A stretch of DNA of 44,773 nucleotides from Candidatus Aenigmatarchaeota archaeon (GTDB lineage Archaea; Aenigmatarchaeota; Aenigmatarchaeia; QMZP01): the NCBI GenBank assembly GCA_016783545.1, contig JADHWJ010000008.1, forward strand, positions 1 to 44,773, in the 5' to 3' direction. The first letter of the stretch is position 1; each line of letters starts with the position of its first letter. The position numbers were made by a program, and so were the translations under genes. Below, piece by piece: positions 4,324-33,575 of this stretch. The notes below the pieces were generated by a model that saw nothing but the letters and a program-made list of their open reading frames with translations, was not told where the DNA came from and ran no database searches.

Positions 4324-4358
4324 AGATATGCCTTTATGGTGTATGTAGGAGGCATTAG

Positions 4359-11270: not shown

Positions 11271-11398
11271 AGCGGGATGGAGCAGCTTGGAGTGCTCGTT
11301 GAAGGTATTATACCTGCGAAAGGCTCATAAGTTGTCCTGGGACACCCAAAGAACTATTGTTCGGGTTTAGGTCGATGGTTCAAATCCATCTCCCGCTA
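11271..11398 (+). tRNA. Initiator tRNA-Met(CAU) with three inferred introns
   Basis: Acceptor arms AGCGGGA (11271-11277) and TCCCGCT (11391-11397) give the A1:U72 pair of archaeal initiators; D-stem GAGC/GCTC and T-arm GATGG-TTCAAAT-CCATC are intact. A normal anticodon arm appears only if three segments are removed: 11302-11321 (20 nt, position 29/30), 11330-11343 (14 nt, canonical 37/38) and 11350-11368 (19 nt, variable loop). The joined product has TTGGG-CTCATAA-CCCAA with three consecutive G:C pairs, the initiator hallmark, then AGGTC, 75 nt in all. Each excised piece can form a small hairpin: AGGTA/TACCT, GTCC/GGAC, GAAC/GTTC. No CCA is encoded. The exact junctions of introns 2 and 3 are ambiguous by 1 nt. 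Confidence 0.85.
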
Positions 11399-11905
11399 TG
11401 TTTTTCTCCAATAAACAAATCCAGAAAGAACTATCAATAAAAACATTGAAAAGAACTCAAGTCCTGAAAATCCAGGAGGCATTCTGGTCACCACATCCAT
11501 ATTATATGTTCCTATTGAAACACCGCTTTTATCATAAGATGCATCAAAGACAAGATCTTTACCATCTTCCCTTTTTGCCACAACCCTTATGTAGACTTCT
11601 GCGTCTTTGCCTGGCTTTAAACCAGAAACAATGAATTGTGTATCTGTTATACTGAAGTCATTGAAATTTATCTGTTTTGCAGGATTTATGTTGGAAAACC
11701 AAGAAGGTCCGTATTCTGTTGTCTTAAGAATCAATTTAACATCTATATCATTTGCTTCTGTATTCTCTATTACCACAGTGACATCTCTTTGCTGGCCCAT
11801 TGTTATTGCAAGCTTTTCCTGTTTGAATCTTATTTCAACAGCACTTACCGAAGAGATGCTTATTATAAAAATCATAAAAGCCAATGCAAAAACTAAAGGT
11901 TTCAT
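11396..11905 (-). CDS. Exported membrane-anchored beta-sandwich protein
   Basis: 169 residues: N-terminal signal peptide (LVFALAFMIFIISISSVSAV), an extracellular domain of about 110 residues with the alternating pattern of a NEW3/CARDB-like Ig fold (QRDVTVVIENTEANDIDVKL, LKPGKDAEVYIRVVA), and a C-terminal membrane segment followed by WRKT. The segment before the C-terminal helix, MPPGFSGLEFF, loosely recalls PGF-CTERM anchors cut by archaeosortase, but this is a guess. Its stop codon overlaps the last bases of the convergent initiator tRNA gene. Confidence 0.65.
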   Translation of the reverse strand: MKPLVFALAFMIFIISISSVSAVEIRFKQEKLAITMGQQRDVTVVIENTEANDIDVKLILKTTEYGPSWFSNINPAKQINFNDFSITDTQFIVSGLKPGKDAEVYIRVVAKREDGKDLVFDASYDKSGVSIGTYNMDVVTRMPPGFSGLEFFSMFLLIVLSGFVYWRKT

Positions 11906-12384: not shown

Positions 12385-12519
12385 GCCTTCCAGACTAACT
12401 TTTTTCTCTTTTCCTGTTTTCATGTCCCTTAGAGTGAACTTCTTTGATTTCAATTCCTTATCGATAACAAAAACAAATATTCTTCTGGTATCCAATTTGA
12501 ACATTTTTCGCCCAAGTAA
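12373..12519 (-). pseudogene. C-terminal remnant of a second hisS
   Basis: Frame read leftward to TAA at 12375-12373. It encodes about 48 residues: LGRKMFKLD, then IFVFVIDKELKSKKF, TLRDMKTGKEKK and VSLEGLSI. This aligns with the C terminus of the intact HisRS in this window (LGKQMKYVN, YTIIMGTKELGRGEV, LLRDMKTGKEKR). The frame has a stop about 5 codons before LGRKM, so no full gene is present. The final 54 nt of the upstream LAGLIDADG gene overlap it in another frame. It looks like the 3' end of an older or displaced hisS copy left behind an inserted endonuclease gene. Confidence 0.75.
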
Positions 12520-13586
12520 TTACAAGCTTCTATTATTACTGAAAGCGGCGGATTAAACCAATTTATACTCCAATTCTTTACTGTGAATGGAGATGCTTTG
12601 TAATGACATTTCTTTTCTATGAAATCTGCAAATTCTTTCCAAGTGAACCCTGATCTATTTTTCCATCTTAGTATAACATCACCTGAATTTCTTACCCTAA
12701 GTACATTTAAAAATTGGTATTCTGATAATATTTTTATAAAATGATTTCTTTTTTCTTTATGAATTAAATATGGATATAAATTATGGAATAACTTAATACA
12801 ATCTTCTGCCTTTGAAATATTTAACTTATTTCGACCATATTTATCTGTATTTATTCTAGAAATTATATTATATTTCTTCAATATTTTTTGTAATCCTTCT
12901 AAAAATTCTTCACTGTTGCTATTAAACATTATCCTTGGAACTTTATAATTATATCTTTTAGTTTTTCTCCAATTATATGAAAAACTCCCGTCACCATCTA
13001 TACACCCAGAAATAAAAGCAAATTGCTTCTCCTTAGATAGATTAAACATATCCTCTGGGACTTGTATGACATTACTTTTCTTTCCCATTGGTATTTTGTA
13101 TCTTAGATTAAAGTATTCTCTCATGGCAGATATATTTATTCTAAGTTTCCAATTATTCTTATCAGGACTAATTGTCATTCCATTTTGTATATCAAAGCAC
13201 TCTTCCAGATTTTTCTTTAATTTCTTTAAATACATTCTATTATGTTGACTTATTTCTACCCTAAAACCATTTTTCGGTATATGACCTTCTGTTAATAACC
13301 AACCCAAAAAACTGCATTCTTCTATGCTTATTTCCTTTGAAACCTTGAAATATCTATTTTTGGATTTAAGTTTTTCTTCATGAAGAAATTCCCAGATATC
13401 CATATCTATATTTTTACATATAAAATCAATGAAATTCATTGGCGTTGATCTAGCACCTCTAAGATATCTATGAATATTGTCATTATGTATTCCACATAGT
13501 TTAGAAACTTCTCGTGTTCCACCATTTTGCTTTACGAAATCTTTCATTCTTTCTCTTAAACTAGCCGAAGCAATTATATATATCAT
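12450..13586 (-). CDS. LAGLIDADG homing endonuclease with N-terminal HTH
   Basis: 378 residues. Residues about 8-60 are a helix-turn-helix (REVSKLCGIHNDNIHRYLRG). Two LAGLIDADG motifs follow: FLGWLLTEGH (93-102) and FISGCIDGDG (191-200), the second with the acidic residues needed for cleavage, the first with Glu as the acid. The tail includes a second HTH-like stretch (WKEFADFIEKKCHYKASPFT). No intein splice motifs are seen, so it is a free-standing or intron-type endonuclease. Its C terminus lies over a HisRS remnant, and intact hisS is 0.3 kb away, suggesting hisS was its former target. Confidence 0.85.
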   Translation of the reverse strand: MIYIIASASLRERMKDFVKQNGGTREVSKLCGIHNDNIHRYLRGARSTPMNFIDFICKNIDMDIWEFLHEEKLKSKNRYFKVSKEISIEECSFLGWLLTEGHIPKNGFRVEISQHNRMYLKKLKKNLEECFDIQNGMTISPDKNNWKLRINISAMREYFNLRYKIPMGKKSNVIQVPEDMFNLSKEKQFAFISGCIDGDGSFSYNWRKTKRYNYKVPRIMFNSNSEEFLEGLQKILKKYNIISRINTDKYGRNKLNISKAEDCIKLFHNLYPYLIHKEKRNHFIKILSEYQFLNVLRVRNSGDVILRWKNRSGFTWKEFADFIEKKCHYKASPFTVKNWSINWFNPPLSVIIEACNYLGEKCSNWIPEEYLFLLSIRN

Positions 13587-13635: not shown

Positions 13636-13896
13636 TTGAATGTTATGGTTAGTCAGGATATAATGATTAAATTTCTGAAGAAATCAGAAACTAAAACTAT
13701 TATCTTAAAAAAAATATTTGAAGAACCTTACTACTTGAGAGAGTTGTCAAAAAGTATGGGTATATTTCCTTCTGGGTTATTAAAACATATGAGATTTCTA
13801 GAAAAGGAAGGCTTGATAAGATCTGAAGAGGTGGGAAGAAAAAAATTTTATAAACTGACAAACAATGGTCTTGAAATATTGAAAAAACTAGAGTGA
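13636..13896 (+). CDS. Small winged-helix transcriptional regulator
   Basis: 86 residues forming a single ArsR-like winged helix: EEPYYLRELSKSMGIFPSGL, then LLKHMRFLEKEGLIRSEEVG and RKKFYKLTNNGLEIL. The start could be the ATG at 13636, 13642 or 13660. It overlaps the end of convergent hisS by 9 nt. It could regulate the adjacent endonuclease, which starts 50 nt away in the opposite direction; this is an inference from position only. Confidence 0.7.
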   Translation: MNVMVSQDIMIKFLKKSETKTIILKKIFEEPYYLRELSKSMGIFPSGLLKHMRFLEKEGLIRSEEVGRKKFYKLTNNGLEILKKLE

Positions 13897-15186
13897 TTTA
13901 GCAACATCTACTATCTTTTCGTTTTTTATTCTTTTTTCTTTTCCGGTTTTCATATCTCTTAGAAGAACTTCTCCTCTGCCGAGTTCTTTTGTTCCCATTA
14001 TTATAGTGTATGGTATGTTCATTGCATTGACATATTTCATCTGTTTCCCTAACTTTTTACCAATCAGATCTGTATCAGCTTTTATGTTATTTTTTCTTAA
14101 TATCTGAACTATTATTATCGCTTCTCTTCTCGTTTCTTCGTTCACAGGTGCAACGAAAATTTTAACAGGTGAATATTCTTCATCCTTCAATATCTCCATT
14201 AATCTATCTATTCCTATTCCAAAACCAGTTGCTGGTGTTTCTCTACCACTATATATTTTAATTAAATCATTATACCTTCCCCCAGATGCAACTGATCCAA
14301 AATTCTCGTAGCCTTTCACAAACGTCTCAAAAACAAATCCTGTGTAATAGTCTATGCCACGAACAATAGAAGCATCAAATTCTATATTCCTCACACCAAA
14401 AAGCTTTGCTAATTTAATTATTCTTTCAAGTTCACTAAACCCCCCCATTGCATCATTTTCCTCTGGATTTTTATTTTTGTTCTTATATACTCCAATTATA
14501 TATTTTTTCAGCTCCTCTATAGATATTGAATTTCTTAAGATGTTTTCTGCTGATATATATTGCTCCTTTTTTAGACCAAGTTTTTCAAATTCTTTGAATA
14601 CAGCTTTTGCTCCAATCTTATCCAACTTATCGAGAATTCTCATATAATCTGGCCACAATGGTTTTTTGATATCAAATAATTGAAGTATACCATTTACAAT
14701 CTTCCTTGAATTAATTTTGAAACAAAAATTTTTTATTCCTATGGCGTTCAGCGACTTAAAAACTAATGATAGTACCTCTGCATCTGCGTCTGCTCTATCA
14801 GAACCTATCAATTCGGCTCCACATTGCCAAAACTCTCTCCATCTAGCAACAGATGGCCGATCATATCTCCACATATTTGTTATATAATAAAATTTTATTG
14901 GTTTCGCCAAAGAAAGATTTGAAGCAACAATTCTACAAATAGGTACTGTAGGGTCAAAACGTAATCCAAGTTTTCTGCCATTCTTATCTTTGAATGTGTA
15001 AATCTCTTTTTCTATATCAGGTCCAGATTTTTTAGATAAAAGTTTGAAATCTTCAAAAGCTGGAGTACAAACTTCACCATAACCATATAATTCAAAGACA
15101 TTTCTTATACTATCAAAAGCTTTTCTACGTCTATTCATTTCTTCAGGAAGAAAGTCCCTTGTTCCACGAGGTGGTTGTATTTTCAT
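13888..15186 (-). CDS. hisS: Histidyl-tRNA synthetase
   Basis: 432-residue class II synthetase that charges tRNA-His. Motif 1 lies near residues 50-80 and motif 2 near 105-125 (MWRYDRPSVARWREFWQCGA). The HisRS-specific signatures are RFDPTVPICR (about 76-85) and VRGIDYYTGFVFE (about 272-284). Motif 3 is ATGFGIGIDRLME (about 318-330). The C-terminal anticodon-binding domain includes LGKQMKYVN and LLRDMKTGKEKR. The gene lies 46 nt downstream of tRNA-His on the same strand, so enzyme and substrate may share a transcript. Its C-terminal segment has a decayed homologue at 12373-12519. Confidence 0.97.
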   Translation of the reverse strand: MKIQPPRGTRDFLPEEMNRRRKAFDSIRNVFELYGYGEVCTPAFEDFKLLSKKSGPDIEKEIYTFKDKNGRKLGLRFDPTVPICRIVASNLSLAKPIKFYYITNMWRYDRPSVARWREFWQCGAELIGSDRADADAEVLSLVFKSLNAIGIKNFCFKINSRKIVNGILQLFDIKKPLWPDYMRILDKLDKIGAKAVFKEFEKLGLKKEQYISAENILRNSISIEELKKYIIGVYKNKNKNPEENDAMGGFSELERIIKLAKLFGVRNIEFDASIVRGIDYYTGFVFETFVKGYENFGSVASGGRYNDLIKIYSGRETPATGFGIGIDRLMEILKDEEYSPVKIFVAPVNEETRREAIIIVQILRKNNIKADTDLIGKKLGKQMKYVNAMNIPYTIIMGTKELGRGEVLLRDMKTGKEKRIKNEKIVDVAKSL

Positions 15187-15232
15187 ATTATCACTCCTTT
15201 AATTCTTTGTTTGCTTTCAATAAATCCTTTAG

Positions 15233-15305
15233 GGCCAGAACTGGGACTCGAACCCAGTACAGAAGATCCACAATCTTCTATGTTGCCAATTACACTATTC
15301 TGGCC
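15233..15305 (-). tRNA. tRNA-His(GUG)
   Basis: Read leftward: acceptor GCCAGAA/TTCTGGC, D-arm, anticodon arm GAAGA-TTGTGGA-TCTTC with anticodon GTG, and T-arm CTGGG-TTCGAGT-CCCAG. The gene encodes the extra G at -1 (15305) opposite C73 (15233), the identity pair of tRNA-His. No intron and no encoded CCA. It lies just upstream of hisS. Confidence 0.93.
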
Positions 15306-20650: not shown

Positions 20651-22546
20651 TTATACTAGAACTTTCAGTCTCTTAGAAACGACACTATGCAATACTTTCT
20701 TACCTAATTCAGACTTTTTCTTCACTTTGATAAGACCCTTTTTGCCCACATATGGGCTGAAAATGAAGTCGTCTCCAGAATAAACATCCACTTGCTCACC
20801 AATGAATTCATTTGCAATTCTAATCAAAATATGAGCACCTGATTCTTCATAGTGCCAAGGGATTTCCTGCTTCAAAGTTTGACTTTTTGGTTCAACGGAT
20901 AGATGAATTCCTAACTGTTTCTCAATTTCATCTATGTTTTTTCCTTGTTTTCCAATAAGCCTTGCTATGACATTTTCATTCACCTTTACAACAGCTCTGT
21001 CAGCTGAAATAATTTCCACCTCTACAGATGGATCATATTTTGACATAAACTGTTCAACTGATTGCTTTGCAAGGTCATTGACAGGTGACTTTGCTTCCTT
21101 TACAGGTATCATTATTGTCTCTTCACCGTAACTGTATATCTCGTATACAAGTTTCTTTGTTTCAAAATCCCTTACTTCTACAACAGGTCTTGATAGATCT
21201 GCTTCTACCATTCCCGAAGGAACTTTTACTGTTAGACTTAGTTCAAGAACACTTTCTATTTTACCTGCTTCTATGAATATCACAGTGTCTATGATATGTG
21301 GTATTACACCAAGCTCTACTCTTCCAAGGAATCTCTGTATTGCATCAACAGGATTAGTTGCGTGTACAACACCAACCATTCCTACTCCTGCAAGTCTCAT
21401 GTCAGAGAATATCTTGAAGTCTCTGGTCTTTCTGACTTCATCAAAGACAGTGTAGTCAGGTCTTACCAAAAGCAATATCTCAGCTGCTTTTTCCCAATCA
21501 CCTTCTAGCGGAGCATATTGAGTTATACTATCTCCAACTTGAAGGTCTCTTGGCTGTTCAAAGGTTTTTACAATCTTACCTTTCTTATCTATAAATTCTG
21601 CCAAAGAGGCAGTGAAAGTAGATTTACCTGAACCAGGAGGTCCTGAAACAAGAACACCACTTGATCTGTCAAGTATTCTGTTTTCAATCTCCTTATGTAG
21701 TTCGTAATCTTCAATACTTACTTTCGCTATAGGTCTTACAGCTGTTATTTCTGTAGCATTGGAAAATGGTGGCTTTGTTATTGCTATTCTATAATTACCT
21801 AATTGTATAACAACAGCACCTTTCCTGCTTATTTCCATAAAACTGTTTTCCATTACTCTTGACCTTGAGACAATCTGGTCTCCTAATTTTTTAAGATCAT
21901 CTTCTGTGATCTTGTTCTTTCCTATTTTGTGAAGGATAACCTCTCCTGGCTTCCCTCTTTTCGCCACAGGATATGCACCTGCTTTCAGATGAACAGATTG
22001 TGTATCATTTGTAAAATACTTTTCAAGAGCGAATTCTTTATTCATTACACTGCTTCCTGAAGGTATGTGATCAACTGATACTCCTTCTGCTTCACCTACG
22101 AGTGCCTGAACATAATCAGAAGTTAGAAGCGTTGCATTCATTTCTTTTGCAACATCCCTTATCAGAGCATCCAGTCTTCCTTTTCTAGCAAGTCTGATCT
22201 CTTCAAAAGTAGGTCTTTTACCTGTAAAATCAACTTTGATTTTTTTCTTTTTTCCTAATTCTCTGATTTTTTTGATCTCTTCCAATCCGGAGAAACCAAT
22301 GTCCCTGCCTGTTGAGGCCTGGGCCTGTAACTCATCGATAACAACGTTTGGTATCAGTATTTGTTTATCTTTGAGTTTTCCTGATTCTATCAATCTTGAA
22401 AGTTTTTTACTTACAAGAACTGATGTATCTGGAACTATAATTTTAGCCTTGGAAGTACTTGTACTCCCTCTTGCTCCTCTGCTTCTGTTGGGATAAGGAG
22501 AAGCAGTGTTTTGGCTAATTTTTCTATTTGTATTTTTATTTTTCAT
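20651..22546 (-). CDS. PIN domain-ATPase-KH protein
   Basis: 631 residues. After a basic, disordered N terminus, a PIN ribonuclease domain (about 35-160) keeps acids D40 (VPDTSVL), D125 (GRLDALIRDVA) and D144 (TSDYVQ). A PilT/VirB11-like ATPase follows with Walker A GPPGSGKST (302-310) and Walker B TVFDEVR (about 366-372). A KH-type RNA-binding domain lies at about 515-550 (VIARLIGKQGKNIDEIEKQL). This is the archaeal PIN-ATPase family (COG1855), which is widely conserved and of uncertain role, probably in RNA handling. It is single-copy here with no antitoxin. Confidence 0.9.
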   Translation of the reverse strand: MKNKNTNRKISQNTASPYPNRSRGARGSTSTSKAKIIVPDTSVLVSKKLSRLIESGKLKDKQILIPNVVIDELQAQASTGRDIGFSGLEEIKKIRELGKKKKIKVDFTGKRPTFEEIRLARKGRLDALIRDVAKEMNATLLTSDYVQALVGEAEGVSVDHIPSGSSVMNKEFALEKYFTNDTQSVHLKAGAYPVAKRGKPGEVILHKIGKNKITEDDLKKLGDQIVSRSRVMENSFMEISRKGAVVIQLGNYRIAITKPPFSNATEITAVRPIAKVSIEDYELHKEIENRILDRSSGVLVSGPPGSGKSTFTASLAEFIDKKGKIVKTFEQPRDLQVGDSITQYAPLEGDWEKAAEILLLVRPDYTVFDEVRKTRDFKIFSDMRLAGVGMVGVVHATNPVDAIQRFLGRVELGVIPHIIDTVIFIEAGKIESVLELSLTVKVPSGMVEADLSRPVVEVRDFETKKLVYEIYSYGEETIMIPVKEAKSPVNDLAKQSVEQFMSKYDPSVEVEIISADRAVVKVNENVIARLIGKQGKNIDEIEKQLGIHLSVEPKSQTLKQEIPWHYEESGAHILIRIANEFIGEQVDVYSGDDFIFSPYVGKKGLIKVKKKSELGKKVLHSVVSKRLKVLV

Positions 22547-28496: not shown

Positions 28497-31400
28497 CTAA
28501 ACTTTCTGAACATACCCTGCACTTGGCTCAAATAACATGCCCTCTTTCTTTAGCTTGTCTACAACATCGTCCACTTCTTCAACACCTTCTTTCTTTGCAG
28601 CTGTTATTATCTCTCCAATAGGAACCTCTTTCTTCTTCTCAGAAAGCTTGTTTATTATATCCATTACAATTCTTATCTTTGACCTCTCACTTGATGCCAC
28701 ACCACCTTCTGCTAAATCAATATCTATCTTACCTGTTGCAGGATCGAATCCTAGTTGTTGCAATGAATATGTCATTAGCTTTATGGCCCTTTTAGCGTCT
28801 TCTTTTCTCACAACATCTGACAGCTGAATTTTAGCGCTTGCCTCTGCAAGCCTTATCATTGCCTCAAACTGTCTTAGTGTTATTGGTACAGGCGAACCTT
28901 CCTGTTCTGCCCTCTTCCTTGAGTCTATGTAGAATTTCTTCAGAATATTTCCCACTTCTACTGTGAGTTCTGGCTTGCAGTGCTCCTTTGAATATGCTAT
29001 ATATCTTCTTAAGAAATCAGTTTCCAGAACTGGTTTCGCACCCTCATAATTTTCATCCTGTCTCGCTCTCAACATGTGTTCAACAACAAGCTTGTCTTTT
29101 GCGGAATTTGGAAGGTCTTTTAATATGAACTTTAAATCAAAACGAGAAAGAAGTGTTGGAACTATTGTAATCTGCTGCATTATAGAAAGCATTGGATCAA
29201 ATCTGCTGAATTTTGGGTTTCCGCCTGCAAGCACTGATGTTTCAGCAGGAAGTGTTGCTACTATGGACGCCTTGGCGATACTCACTGAGCCCTGTTCCAA
29301 CGCTTCGTGCATGGCAACAGAGTCTTCTGGTGCCATTTTTTCAAACTCATCTATTGAAAGGATGCCTTTGTTTGCCAGGACAATCGCACCTGCTTCCAGT
29401 ACCCACCCGCCCATAAATTCTTCATCTTTTGTGACCGTGGCGGTATTATGTATTACCATACCATTACATACAAAACTATGTTCGTCTTCAACCGTAACAT
29501 CATATACATAGTCATGATCTTTATTTTGGAAAGTTTCAACTTTTTTGATTTTTTCCCACACAATGTCAGAGTTTGCAAGTTTTTCCAAATGCTTTAGTGT
29601 TTTGTTAGAGCCGTTTATTTTCATTTTATTGACTAGCCATTTTAACTTGTTTTTTGATATTTGTGTTCTCCCCTCTTCATAATGATAATTCTTATAGCCA
29701 AATATATCGCTTGAAGATAAACCAATATCATTTCTTGCTTTCTTTATAAGATGACCTATATTAGGTATAATATCAAAATTTGTATGTTCGTTTTTTGTTT
29801 TTGAAATTATTTTCTCCAAAATTATCTGTTTTCTTGGTAATTTGAACCCAATATTTTTATGGAATTTTTTGAAGTTCCCAAGTCCTCTGATTTCCAAAGT
29901 CCATTTATAACCAGATACAACCTCCCTACCTCTTATTTTAGATTTTGTAGGGTTTCTTTTTCTGACAAAAGATATTATGCCAAATTTTAGCATCAGTAGT
30001 TGTATTCCTTTAATAAACATTTCACTTGCAGAATCCAGCTCTATCAAATTAGATCCGCCACTTCTCATCATAACCGAACCGTCTGTATCGAATACGCCTC
30101 GTATATAAGAGCCTAACAATTCATTAGGCAATAAAGATAGATTTCTGTTAATATGTATTCTTTTTGATTTTTTTCCAGTGGGTATTCCAAAATCATTCAA
30201 TATAGCACCAATTATTTTTGAAGAGAATCTATAATATTGTATCCTATTCCATTGTTTTCTATATTTTGGCACGAAACCCAATTGATTTGCACATATTTTC
30301 TTATATTCGTCCATTAACCACACGTCATTATTTGTGAATTTTATATCAGAGCCACCATAAGGGGTTTTTGTTATATTTCCATCACCTGCAACAAGACCCA
30401 TAATATATGCAAATTCTTTATTGAGTTTTTTCGGTATTTCTATCTTATGACCATTATATTGCGAGAGTATTAATTTGGATGGCAGGGTGCTGTAAAAATC
30501 AGTATCTGTATCTTCACATAGCATCCTAAGAGCTTTCAGGCTTGGTTTGCCACAATTAGTAACATCTCTCCACAGATGATAAATTTGATTTTCACTTATA
30601 TCATGACTTCTTGTATATTCCCTTAACGTGGTTTTTTCTTTTATTTTTTCCACAGTATTGTTTACGATATTCGCTGCGTTTAAAATCTTTGCAGATTCAT
30701 CTATGTATTCCGTTAGATTAACATTCCTCTTATTTGATGGCAATAAAACTCTTGAACATGCTATATAATCATTCCCTGTCAGCTTGCTTGCCCTTTTCCA
30801 TATAAGTTCTCCTTTGTTTATTACCAGAATTGGGTTATCAGGCGTAACTATAATATCCTTTCCTGTTTTTGATATGATTTTCGTTAATTTAGTAGGTGCT
30901 TTCAATTTCCAGAACTTTGTTATTTTTTTAGGTTCTATTTTCATTTTATTTTTGTTAAAAGATACTATACGTCCTGATTGTTTTTCTGAAACAAAAACAC
31001 CTGGTCGTACCTCTTTACAATTATGTTTTATTTCATCTTCAACTACATCGCCTATTTTGGCAAAGCCTCCGTCTGATTTTTGTATGATACTATCATATGT
31101 TGTGCAAAGCCCAGCAGTGCTTACTCCCTTACCAGAAACATACTTTCCTCTTGGAACAATTGTTGGTGCGAGCTTAAGGAGCTGGGAATTATGAACAAAT
31201 ATCTGATTTGCTATAAAATTATGCACTTCTGGAATTTGCAAATCATACACCCATTTCTCATTTGACTTTATTTTTTCTATATTTTTTACCCTATCCCAGA
31301 AAATATCACTTCTATTCAATCCTATCAGAGATTCTATCTTTTCACTCAGTTTCTTATCTTCTATTTTCATTTCTTTTATTTTTTCTTCTATGTTTCTCAC

Positions 31401-33575
31401 AATAACATTCATAATTCTTTTCGTTGGGTTTCTATCACCTCTTTCATAATGCTGATATGTTGTTCTTTTTATTCCCATATCAAATTGGCTCAAACCTAGA
31501 TGTTTTCTGATATACTTTAATGTTTCTGATAGATTAGGAATTACATCTGAAATAGAAAATTTGTTTTTAAACATTTCCAGTCTTTTATTCTTCTTTTTAG
31601 TTGAGAATCCTATCATTTTGCTAAATTTCTTAAGGTCAGAACCAGAAACTATAATCCTATAGTATTTTCTGTATTTGGGGGTTGGAGAATTTGTAGCTCT
31701 TTTCATCATTCCATGCACCTGAGATAATATACTGAATCTTAGCAATAATATCTGTATCTGTTCTGCCATAATTTTGCTTGCAGTGCTAAGTTCTATTCCT
31801 CTTCTTCCTATATGCGCCTCACAATCAAAAAATACCTGTAAAAATTCTTTAATTTCATTATCGCTTGCTCTAAGTATTATATTCGGTATTTTCTTGTTTT
31901 TGGATTTTTCCAAGAAACTTGGCTCAATTTTCTCAAGAAAATCGACAAGTTCTATAGAAGAGAGATAATAATCCCAAGCGGTTTTTCCCTTATGCGGGAT
32001 TCTCTTATGAATCGGTATGTTGAATATCTTAGCAGACATCTCAAAATCTTTCAAAATTTTCGGGTCATTGTTAGTGAACCAAATCAATTTTGATTTCTCT
32101 CTTTTCTGCACATAACCTTCAGCAAGTATATATGCTAAAAATTTACAAAGTCTTGGTGTTGTTTTTTTAGGAATAATTATATGCTTTGCGTTGTTTGCTT
32201 TGCTTCTTCTAACATTAATTCTAATATTTTGCTGCTTACCTTTAATTGAAAGTTTCCTCGGGGATGCTATGAAATCATTCTTAGAAAGTTTTGATGCCTC
32301 TATGGATTTAACAGAACCATCTGAACAAATAAAGAATGGATGTGTAGGTGTAACAGTTATTGTTTTTCCAGAGTAAGTTTCTATATTATAGAGACTTTTC
32401 GGGCTTTTCCTTTTCCAAAATATGTTTGCCTTTGTTTTCTGCATCTTTCCGATCAAAGACAAACTTAATAAATCATCATTTCCCTCTGCATACCAACCAT
32501 CTTTTATCTTTTCTTTATTGTTTTTTAATTTATTTTCTACAATATCTTCTATTTTTTTTATCTCTCCATTTATCAGGATAACATTCGTATTACCAGAAAC
32601 GCATTTTCCAGCCGCCGGATCTCCTAACAACAAAACATGTATATCACCTCTTATCTTTGTATTATCCCTCATCAATTTTGGTACACCACCAAAGAGCTGA
32701 AGTATTATGGATTCCTTTATTTCTGAAAGACCATATAAAGAAGGTGCTAAGCTACCAACCAACTTTTTATAAACCATTGGGTCATTTGAAAGTTTCTTTA
32801 TTCTTTTCTCATCCTCTTTGCTAACTTCAACCTTTTCCCAGCCAAGTTCTGTTGGTTCTATATGATTTGCCTCAAAATAAAAGTCAAGCTTTGATGAATA
32901 GAACTTTCCCTTTGGTATATCTCTAAGCATGCCTGTAATTCTTAGCCTGTTACCAGCATCTGTCATCCTTCTGCCTTCTTTCGAGCAAAGGTCTCTTTGA
33001 AGTATTATGTTCATCTGTGACGGTTTCTCTCCTTCTGTTAATTCAAAAGGTTCATCAATAACTATTCTTCTGGTATCAATCAGCTTTGCTTCAGCTTGTT
33101 TGAATCCCTTTGTATTGCCGCATTCGCACTTGTACGGCTTTGAGACAAATCCGAGCCTTGCTTCCTGCTCTATCTTATCACCGCACTCAGGGCATTCCCA
33201 TATGGAAGCTGTTATTTCCGGCCTTATTTCCGATGATCTTCTAACTATACCCTCGATTGCAATGAATTTTCCTATATGCCTTGCTCTCAGATCCCTTATA
33301 TTAACCAAATCAGTATGATTTTTGAATCTTATATTAACAGGCCCAGGGAGTTCTATCTGCTCAGTTGCCTCTTCAAACACTTCAAAGATTGATTCAGGCT
33401 GTTCTTTTAGAATATCAACAATATCTGGATGCGCTTTATCTAAAAAGGCAATATCAACTTCCAGCGCTTTCTCCTCTTCAGATGCTCTGAATAACTCCTT
33501 CTTGTATTTTCTATTTAGAAAATCTTTTATCCTGGTAATGAATTCATTCTTTTTTCTTTGAGAGAGCTCTTCCAT
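28497..33575 (-). CDS. mcm: MCM replicative helicase precursor with two inteins
   Basis: 1692-residue precursor giving a 666-residue MCM after splicing, the hexameric 3'-5' replicative helicase. N-terminal domain with zinc ribbon CPECG ... CECGNTKG (about 128-153). AAA+ core: Walker A LLLGDPAAGK at 315-324, interrupted by intein 1, then SQLLKLAPTIVPRGKYVSGK, interrupted by intein 2 after STAGL, then TATVTKDEEFMGGWVLEAGA. Walker B is ILSIDEFEKM, sensor 1 AGGNPKFSRFD, and arginine finger LLSRFDL. A C-terminal winged helix follows (EKKKEVPIGEIITAAKKEGV). Both junctions have Cys1 and end in HN followed by Ser or Thr, so splicing looks competent. Confidence 0.96.
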   Translation of the reverse strand: MEELSQRKKNEFITRIKDFLNRKYKKELFRASEEEKALEVDIAFLDKAHPDIVDILKEQPESIFEVFEEATEQIELPGPVNIRFKNHTDLVNIRDLRARHIGKFIAIEGIVRRSSEIRPEITASIWECPECGDKIEQEARLGFVSKPYKCECGNTKGFKQAEAKLIDTRRIVIDEPFELTEGEKPSQMNIILQRDLCSKEGRRMTDAGNRLRITGMLRDIPKGKFYSSKLDFYFEANHIEPTELGWEKVEVSKEDEKRIKKLSNDPMVYKKLVGSLAPSLYGLSEIKESIILQLFGGVPKLMRDNTKIRGDIHVLLLGDPAAGKCVSGNTNVILINGEIKKIEDIVENKLKNNKEKIKDGWYAEGNDDLLSLSLIGKMQKTKANIFWKRKSPKSLYNIETYSGKTITVTPTHPFFICSDGSVKSIEASKLSKNDFIASPRKLSIKGKQQNIRINVRRSKANNAKHIIIPKKTTPRLCKFLAYILAEGYVQKREKSKLIWFTNNDPKILKDFEMSAKIFNIPIHKRIPHKGKTAWDYYLSSIELVDFLEKIEPSFLEKSKNKKIPNIILRASDNEIKEFLQVFFDCEAHIGRRGIELSTASKIMAEQIQILLLRFSILSQVHGMMKRATNSPTPKYRKYYRIIVSGSDLKKFSKMIGFSTKKKNKRLEMFKNKFSISDVIPNLSETLKYIRKHLGLSQFDMGIKRTTYQHYERGDRNPTKRIMNVIVRNIEEKIKEMKIEDKKLSEKIESLIGLNRSDIFWDRVKNIEKIKSNEKWVYDLQIPEVHNFIANQIFVHNSQLLKLAPTIVPRGKYVSGKGVSTAGLCTTYDSIIQKSDGGFAKIGDVVEDEIKHNCKEVRPGVFVSEKQSGRIVSFNKNKMKIEPKKITKFWKLKAPTKLTKIISKTGKDIIVTPDNPILVINKGELIWKRASKLTGNDYIACSRVLLPSNKRNVNLTEYIDESAKILNAANIVNNTVEKIKEKTTLREYTRSHDISENQIYHLWRDVTNCGKPSLKALRMLCEDTDTDFYSTLPSKLILSQYNGHKIEIPKKLNKEFAYIMGLVAGDGNITKTPYGGSDIKFTNNDVWLMDEYKKICANQLGFVPKYRKQWNRIQYYRFSSKIIGAILNDFGIPTGKKSKRIHINRNLSLLPNELLGSYIRGVFDTDGSVMMRSGGSNLIELDSASEMFIKGIQLLMLKFGIISFVRKRNPTKSKIRGREVVSGYKWTLEIRGLGNFKKFHKNIGFKLPRKQIILEKIISKTKNEHTNFDIIPNIGHLIKKARNDIGLSSSDIFGYKNYHYEEGRTQISKNKLKWLVNKMKINGSNKTLKHLEKLANSDIVWEKIKKVETFQNKDHDYVYDVTVEDEHSFVCNGMVIHNTATVTKDEEFMGGWVLEAGAIVLANKGILSIDEFEKMAPEDSVAMHEALEQGSVSIAKASIVATLPAETSVLAGGNPKFSRFDPMLSIMQQITIVPTLLSRFDLKFILKDLPNSAKDKLVVEHMLRARQDENYEGAKPVLETDFLRRYIAYSKEHCKPELTVEVGNILKKFYIDSRKRAEQEGSPVPITLRQFEAMIRLAEASAKIQLSDVVRKEDAKRAIKLMTYSLQQLGFDPATGKIDIDLAEGGVASSERSKIRIVMDIINKLSEKKKEVPIGEIITAAKKEGVEEVDDVVDKLKKEGMLFEPSAGYVQKV
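29445..31106 (-). mobile_element. Intein 2 of MCM with LAGLIDADG endonuclease
   Basis: 554 residues inserted between GL and TATV of the AAA+ core. Starts CTTYDSIIQKSDGGFAKIGD (block A, Cys1), has VTPDNPILV (block B), LAGLIDADG motifs YIMGLVAGDG and YIRGVFDTDG, then HTH-like segments, and ends EDEHSFVCNGMVIHN before extein Thr. Motifs have the acids needed for cleavage, so homing may still work. Confidence 0.95.
31188..32603 (-). mobile_element. Intein 1 of MCM in the Walker A motif
   Basis: 472 residues inserted between the P-loop Lys and the following Ser (AAGK/SQLL). Starts CVSGNTNVILINGEIKKIED (block A), has VTPTHPFFI (block B), degenerate LAGLIDADG motifs LAYILAEGYV and FLQVFFDCEA, an XRE-like HTH (GLSQFDMGIKRTTYQHYERG), and ends EVHNFIANQIFVHN. 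The precursor cannot bind ATP until this intein leaves. Confidence 0.95.

Follow-up and report, generated by a model that had tools for sequence, protein, structure and literature searches.

Structure of the initiator tRNA gene

The DNA analysed here (the window) is a stretch of 44,773 nucleotides (nt) from a Candidatus Aenigmatarchaeota archaeon (contig JADHWJ010000008.1, assembly GCA_016783545.1), and its forward strand carries at 11271-11398 a 128-nt initiator tRNA-Met gene that runs from A1 (11271) to the discriminator A73 (11398). The ends of the gene form a seven-base-pair acceptor stem, AGCGGGA/TCCCGCT, followed by A73. Exon 1 (11271..11301, +; positions 1-29, from a decoder described below and intron-free relatives) holds the 5' strand of the acceptor stem, the D arm and the start of the anticodon stem; exon 2 (11322..11329, +; positions 30-37, with the anticodon CAT) and exon 3 (11344..11349, +; positions 38-43) were placed by folding and by the decoder; and exon 4 (11369..11398, +; positions 44-73, from the decoder) supplies the variable loop, the T arm, the 3' strand of the acceptor stem and the discriminator A, with no CCA encoded. 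Separating the exons are intron 1 (11302..11321, +; 20 nt, AAGGTATTATACCTGCGAAA) at position 29/30, intron 2 (11330..11343, +; 14 nt, AGTTGTCCTGGGAC) at the canonical position 37/38, and intron 3 (11350..11368, +; 19 nt, AGAACTATTGTTCGGGTTT) at position 43/44.

Removal of the 20, 14 and 19 nt at these positions leaves a 75-nt product, AGCGGGATGGAGCAGCTTGGAGTGCTCGTTGGGCTCATAACCCAAAGGTCGATGGTTCAAATCCATCTCCCGCTA, whose minimum free energy (MFE) fold is a cloverleaf in which all stems pair, including the D arm (GAGC..GCTC) and the T arm (GATGG TTCAAAT CCATC). In this mature fold the A at 11271 pairs with the U at 11397 (A1:U72), and the anticodon arm reads UUGGG-CUCAUAA-CCCAA, with three G:C pairs (GGG/CCC) at the base of the stem and a CAU anticodon. 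ARAGORN calls the spliced product tRNA-Met(cat), and it is identical at 68 of 75 positions to the initiator tRNA of a member of the same family whose gene has no introns. An independent dynamic-programming decoder, whose template combined intron-free initiator tRNAs of related genomes with the spliced window sequence, recovered the same three introns. The original prediction, made from the letters of the window, had placed an initiator tRNA at exactly these coordinates with introns at 29/30, 37/38 and in the variable loop; its initiator identity and its well-formed archaeal product hold, as do the first two intron positions, while the third is refined to 43/44, at the base of the variable loop.

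In its interrupted form the gene escapes standard finders. ARAGORN at default settings calls no tRNA in the unspliced 128 nt and, when it may insert introns, mistakes the precursor for a tRNA-Pro, a call that we reject. Across the window, Rfam at its gathering threshold and ARAGORN call tRNA-His alone and miss the initiator gene, and an Rfam E-value scan of the initiator locus returned chance families only. The last three bases of the gene (CTA) also provide the TAG stop of a convergent open reading frame at 11396-11905 (-).

Bulge-helix-bulge motifs at the three junctions

We examined each junction for a bulge-helix-bulge (BHB) motif in which a 4-bp central helix separates a first bulge of two exon bases and one intron base from a second bulge of two intron bases and one exon base. 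The 4-bp helix between two 3-nt bulges is complete at all three junctions (TCGT/GCGA for intron 1; CTCA/TGGG, with one G.U pair, for intron 2; ACCC/GGGT for intron 3), as expected if all three inserts are introns. Intron 1 has both flanking helices, an internal one of 5 bp and an outer one of 2 bp. By the strict hBHBh' criterion introns 2 and 3 are relaxed forms: motif 2 has an internal helix of 1 bp and an outer helix that reaches 5 bp after removal of intron 1, and motif 3 has a 4-bp internal helix (GAAC/GTTC) and, with a strict bulge, an outer helix of 1 bp. Intron 3 allows three alternative placements with an identical product, of which 43/44 is the best. The description of each removed piece as self-complementary thus applies to introns 1 and 3, and to intron 2 only weakly.

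When the exons were held fixed and each intron was shuffled 200,000 times, the probability of central and internal helices at least as good was 1.7e-4 at 29/30, 7e-3 at 37/38 and 1.4e-4 at 43/44. In the unspliced RNA the central helix of BHB1 has a predicted pairing probability of about 0.70-0.80 and that of BHB3 one of 0.33; the MFE fold contains both motifs.

Initiator genes across the class

Initiator genes were sought by pattern in 156 genomes of the class. Only part of these genomes gave a match, and genes broken within the patterns would escape the search; 57 initiator genes decoded cleanly. The numbers of introns in these genes were zero (11 genes), one (15), two (18), three (9), four (3) and five (1), so that 46 of the 57 are interrupted and 13 carry three or more introns. 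To regard the window gene as an isolated case is accordingly an overstatement, since intron-rich initiator tRNAs are usual in the whole class. Intron-free initiator genes are found in genomes G001, G035, G038 and G023. The favoured positions are 37/38 and 29/30, followed by 59/60, 14/15, 43/44, 7/8 and 53/54, and a complete 4/4 central helix is present in 68% of 91 introns in related initiator genes versus 3.8% after shuffling.

The positions used in the window gene recur with their motifs. An intron at 29/30 occurs in 20 decoded genes including that of the window, with a 4/4 central helix in 20/20, and at locus L208 the usual pair TCGT/GCGA is replaced by a compensated one in which exon TCAT pairs with intron GTGA. 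An intron at 37/38 occurs in 28 decoded genes, again including the window gene, mostly with 3-4 of the 4 central pairs. The 43/44 intron is also found in G026, G110, G080 and G009; its boundary in G026 and G110 was placed by eye, the decoder being one or two positions off, and L046, L208 and L198 were read by eye at 43/44. The exact trio of positions of the window recurs in G026, from another family of the order, and in G110, from another family of the class, and is nested within the larger intron sets of G080 and G009. Judged from this distribution alone, an old origin of the trio is probable, followed by losses and additions, and we regard the comparative sequence evidence as decisive for reading the window gene as containing three introns. 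Introns near 7/8 (L190, L191, L192 and L205) have poor BHB scores and uncertain exact boundaries, and the genes of G015 (L040) and G106 (L206) were not reliably decoded.

Several relatives go beyond three introns. The initiator gene of G009 (L078, G009:C83, near 4342-4358) has five, at 14/15, 29/30, 37/38, 43/44 and 59/60; all five junctions have a 4/4 central helix with internal helices of 3-8 bp, and the shuffle P for central plus internal helix ranges from below 5e-5 to 7.5e-4. Four introns each are found in L051 (G025), L081 (G029) and L193 (G080). The stated maximum per tRNA is three introns (PMC4033280, PMC3218864, PMC8450103), and we found no tRNA with four or five in the accessible literature, most subscription papers lying outside the search.

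Two further initiator loci are unusual in other ways. L213 (G123:C8, around 21542-21563) is a candidate split initiator tRNA whose halves are found on opposite strands, separated by about 100 nt: the 5' half ends CCCATA|GCGTGGTCCGCC, the 3' half is AGGCGGACTCGTTAGAA|ACCCGG..., and the tails GTCCGCC/GGCGGAC are complementary. Its central BHB helix is weak, and an assembly inversion is an alternative. At L206 (G106:C8, upstream of 895-916) the initiator tRNA is cut at 37/38 by an insertion of more than 200 nt with an open frame (AAKRLREEGWEIFSPTVVCDRIGVKEGEVFLIEFKKPGQ...) for what may be an intron-encoded nuclease.

Splicing endonuclease and genome context

The window genome is an 885-kb draft in 18 contigs, 70% complete. 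A second, intron-free initiator gene had been named as a check on the original prediction, and none was found in these 885 kb. Interruptions affect most of the remaining tRNA genes too; among about a dozen archaeal-looking tRNA genes read by eye, tRNA-His alone is plainly uninterrupted.

The original prediction also called for a splicing endonuclease with broad specificity. The genome encodes one tRNA_int_endo protein (open reading frame on G000:C12, 392 aa), which aligns at full length to ARMAN-2 EndA (residues 5-392 versus 4fz2 8-387, E=3.1e-101) and has the epsilon2-type architecture, three units fused in one chain of about 390-400 aa. Its catalytic Tyr/His/Lys are conserved: Y237, H251/H254/H257 and K281/K282 are invariant in a 6-sequence alignment and align with the ARMAN-2 enzyme. 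Cleavage of non-canonical introns is reported for the epsilon2 type (PMC4033280, PMC6379350, PMC12397907), with broad substrate cleavage reported for ARMAN-2 only (PMC6379350, PMC12397907); by sequence the enzyme of this genome is a homologue of that broad-specificity endonuclease. The genomes nearest by endonuclease, among the named ones, are nearly all Candidatus Aenigmatarchaeota, in line with the DPANN affiliation that had been suggested.

Other features of the genome were noted in passing. The tRNA-His gene (15232-15304, -) lies directly upstream of a histidyl-tRNA synthetase gene (13888-15186, -) on the same strand. The window also contains a free-standing LAGLIDADG protein (12450-13586, -) and a gene for an MCM-like helicase of 1692 aa (28497-33575, -), apparently with two inteins (intein-like insertions read by eye). 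A region elsewhere in the genome (G000:C7:28960-29924) carries four intron-free tRNAs, in contrast to the interrupted ones in the rest of the genome, and at least one of the four is followed by CCA in the DNA; the region is possibly viral, mobile or contaminating DNA.

Alternative explanations

Several observations weigh against a functional three-intron gene. BHB2 is unpopulated in the predicted ensembles of both the precursor and the intermediate without introns 1 and 3 (its fold lies at -28.3 kcal/mol versus -39.0 kcal/mol for the MFE), so that use of motif 2 would depend on in vivo folding or protein help; this motif is the weakest element of the modelled three-intron scheme. RtcB was not found in the 70% complete genome; as 35 of 41 genomes in the order have it, the absence is probably due to incompleteness. 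A second, intact initiator gene could also sit in the missing part of the genome. The behaviour of motif 2, together with its 1-bp internal helix and shuffle P of 0.007, would fit a gene in which introns 1 and 3 are real and the 14-nt stretch at 37/38 is retained or removed otherwise. With these 14 nt retained, however, no seven-nucleotide CAU anticodon loop can form; an intron at exactly 37/38 is present in 28 decoded genes, this one included, and mostly keeps three or four of the central pairs; and relaxed motifs are known epsilon2 substrates (PMC4033280). We consider this very unlikely.

The possible intact copy bears mainly on the idea that the locus is a decaying pseudogene, a once-functional initiator gene broken by small insertions, while an intact copy lies elsewhere. 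Against this, 75/75 exon positions are intact and every stem pairs, the insertions coincide with splice positions whose BHB motifs recur across families, and no other copy was found in the sequenced 885 kb, all of which makes decay highly improbable. That 53 nt were added by an assembly or sequencing artefact might be entertained for a draft in 18 contigs, but other species, assembled independently, carry introns at these same three positions that differ in sequence, and the chance of such an error is negligible. Both the pseudogene and the artefact are rejected on comparative grounds, by the recurrence of the positions in other families and species. We thus take 11271-11398 to be, almost certainly, a functional initiator tRNA-Met gene whose three introns would be cut by the organism's own epsilon2 enzyme and whose exons would be ligated to a standard tRNA.

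Proposed splicing route and order

Transcription, BHB folding, endonuclease cleavage and ligation form the standard archaeal route of tRNA splicing. For the window initiator tRNA the same steps are inferred: the transcript would fold into BHB motifs at the three exon/intron junctions, the epsilon2-type endonuclease of the genome would cleave at each bulge pair, and a ligase (RtcB in relatives) would join the four exons into the standard 75-nt initiator tRNA. This is by far the best explanation of the exons, BHB pairings, conserved positions and endonuclease gene found by computation.

The pairings further suggest an order of events. Motifs 1 and 3 are compatible with each other, but motif 2 overlaps motif 1 at nucleotides 31-32 and motif 3 at nucleotides 39-40, and the canonical intron is therefore probably removed last. 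Introns 1 and 3 would leave first, which would restore the anticodon stem as the 5-bp outer helix for intron 2. In the four- and five-intron tRNAs, where neighbouring motifs likewise share exon nucleotides, an ordered excision cascade would be needed. We consider it likely that the initiator tRNA gene in Candidatus Aenigmatarchaeota acts as a hot spot for BHB introns and exceeds the three-per-tRNA maximum of the accessible literature, and that one epsilon2 endonuclease would have to complete an ordered cascade before translation can start.

Relation to known systems and implications

According to the original prediction, multiple tRNA introns are known mainly from Thermoproteales. The multi-intron tRNA genes of Thermoproteales (Pyrobaculum, Thermofilum) share the feature with the window gene but belong to a different phylum and use an (alpha-beta)2 endonuclease rather than an epsilon2 enzyme; here, moreover, it is the initiator tRNA that bears the introns, and relatives of the window gene exceed the reported maximum. 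Such tRNAs are also reported in ARMAN-1 and ARMAN-2 (PMC4033280), which likewise combine them with a homodimeric endonuclease that has three units and broad specificity but are Micrarchaeota, whereas the window organism is a member of Candidatus Aenigmatarchaeota. In another lineage, the Asgard Atabeyarchaeia and Freyarchaeia, introns interrupt 92-95% of tRNA genes, more than half of them several times and often at non-canonical positions (PMC11291895). The ordered dependency of motif 2 has a parallel in archaeal tRNAs with introns spaced so closely that the next motif can form only after one of them has been removed (tRNAscan-SE 2.0, PMC8450103). Initiator tRNAs interrupted at positions used in the window gene or its relatives are known from Nanoarchaeum equitans, where the gene is split at 37/38, and Thermofilum pendens, where it is permuted at 59/60 and has a 37/38 intron (PMC3218864), whereas the exons of the window gene are collinear and separated by three introns in cis. 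We found no description of an epsilon2 enzyme or of such introns in Candidatus Aenigmatarchaeota in the searchable literature.

The window gene is a new case of a known phenomenon, multi-intron tRNAs of archaea, from a lineage for which it had not been described, and extends heavy tRNA interruption together with an epsilon2 endonuclease to a further DPANN phylum. It accounts for the failure of standard finders to detect the initiator tRNA in such genomes, where many other tRNAs are probably missed too. With the four- and five-intron relatives as a set of natural substrates, a single recombinant enzyme would allow direct tests of splicing order and of intron gain or loss. Even the most essential tRNA is not spared interruption, and every protein of the cell would hinge on three correct excisions in a 75-nt tRNA.
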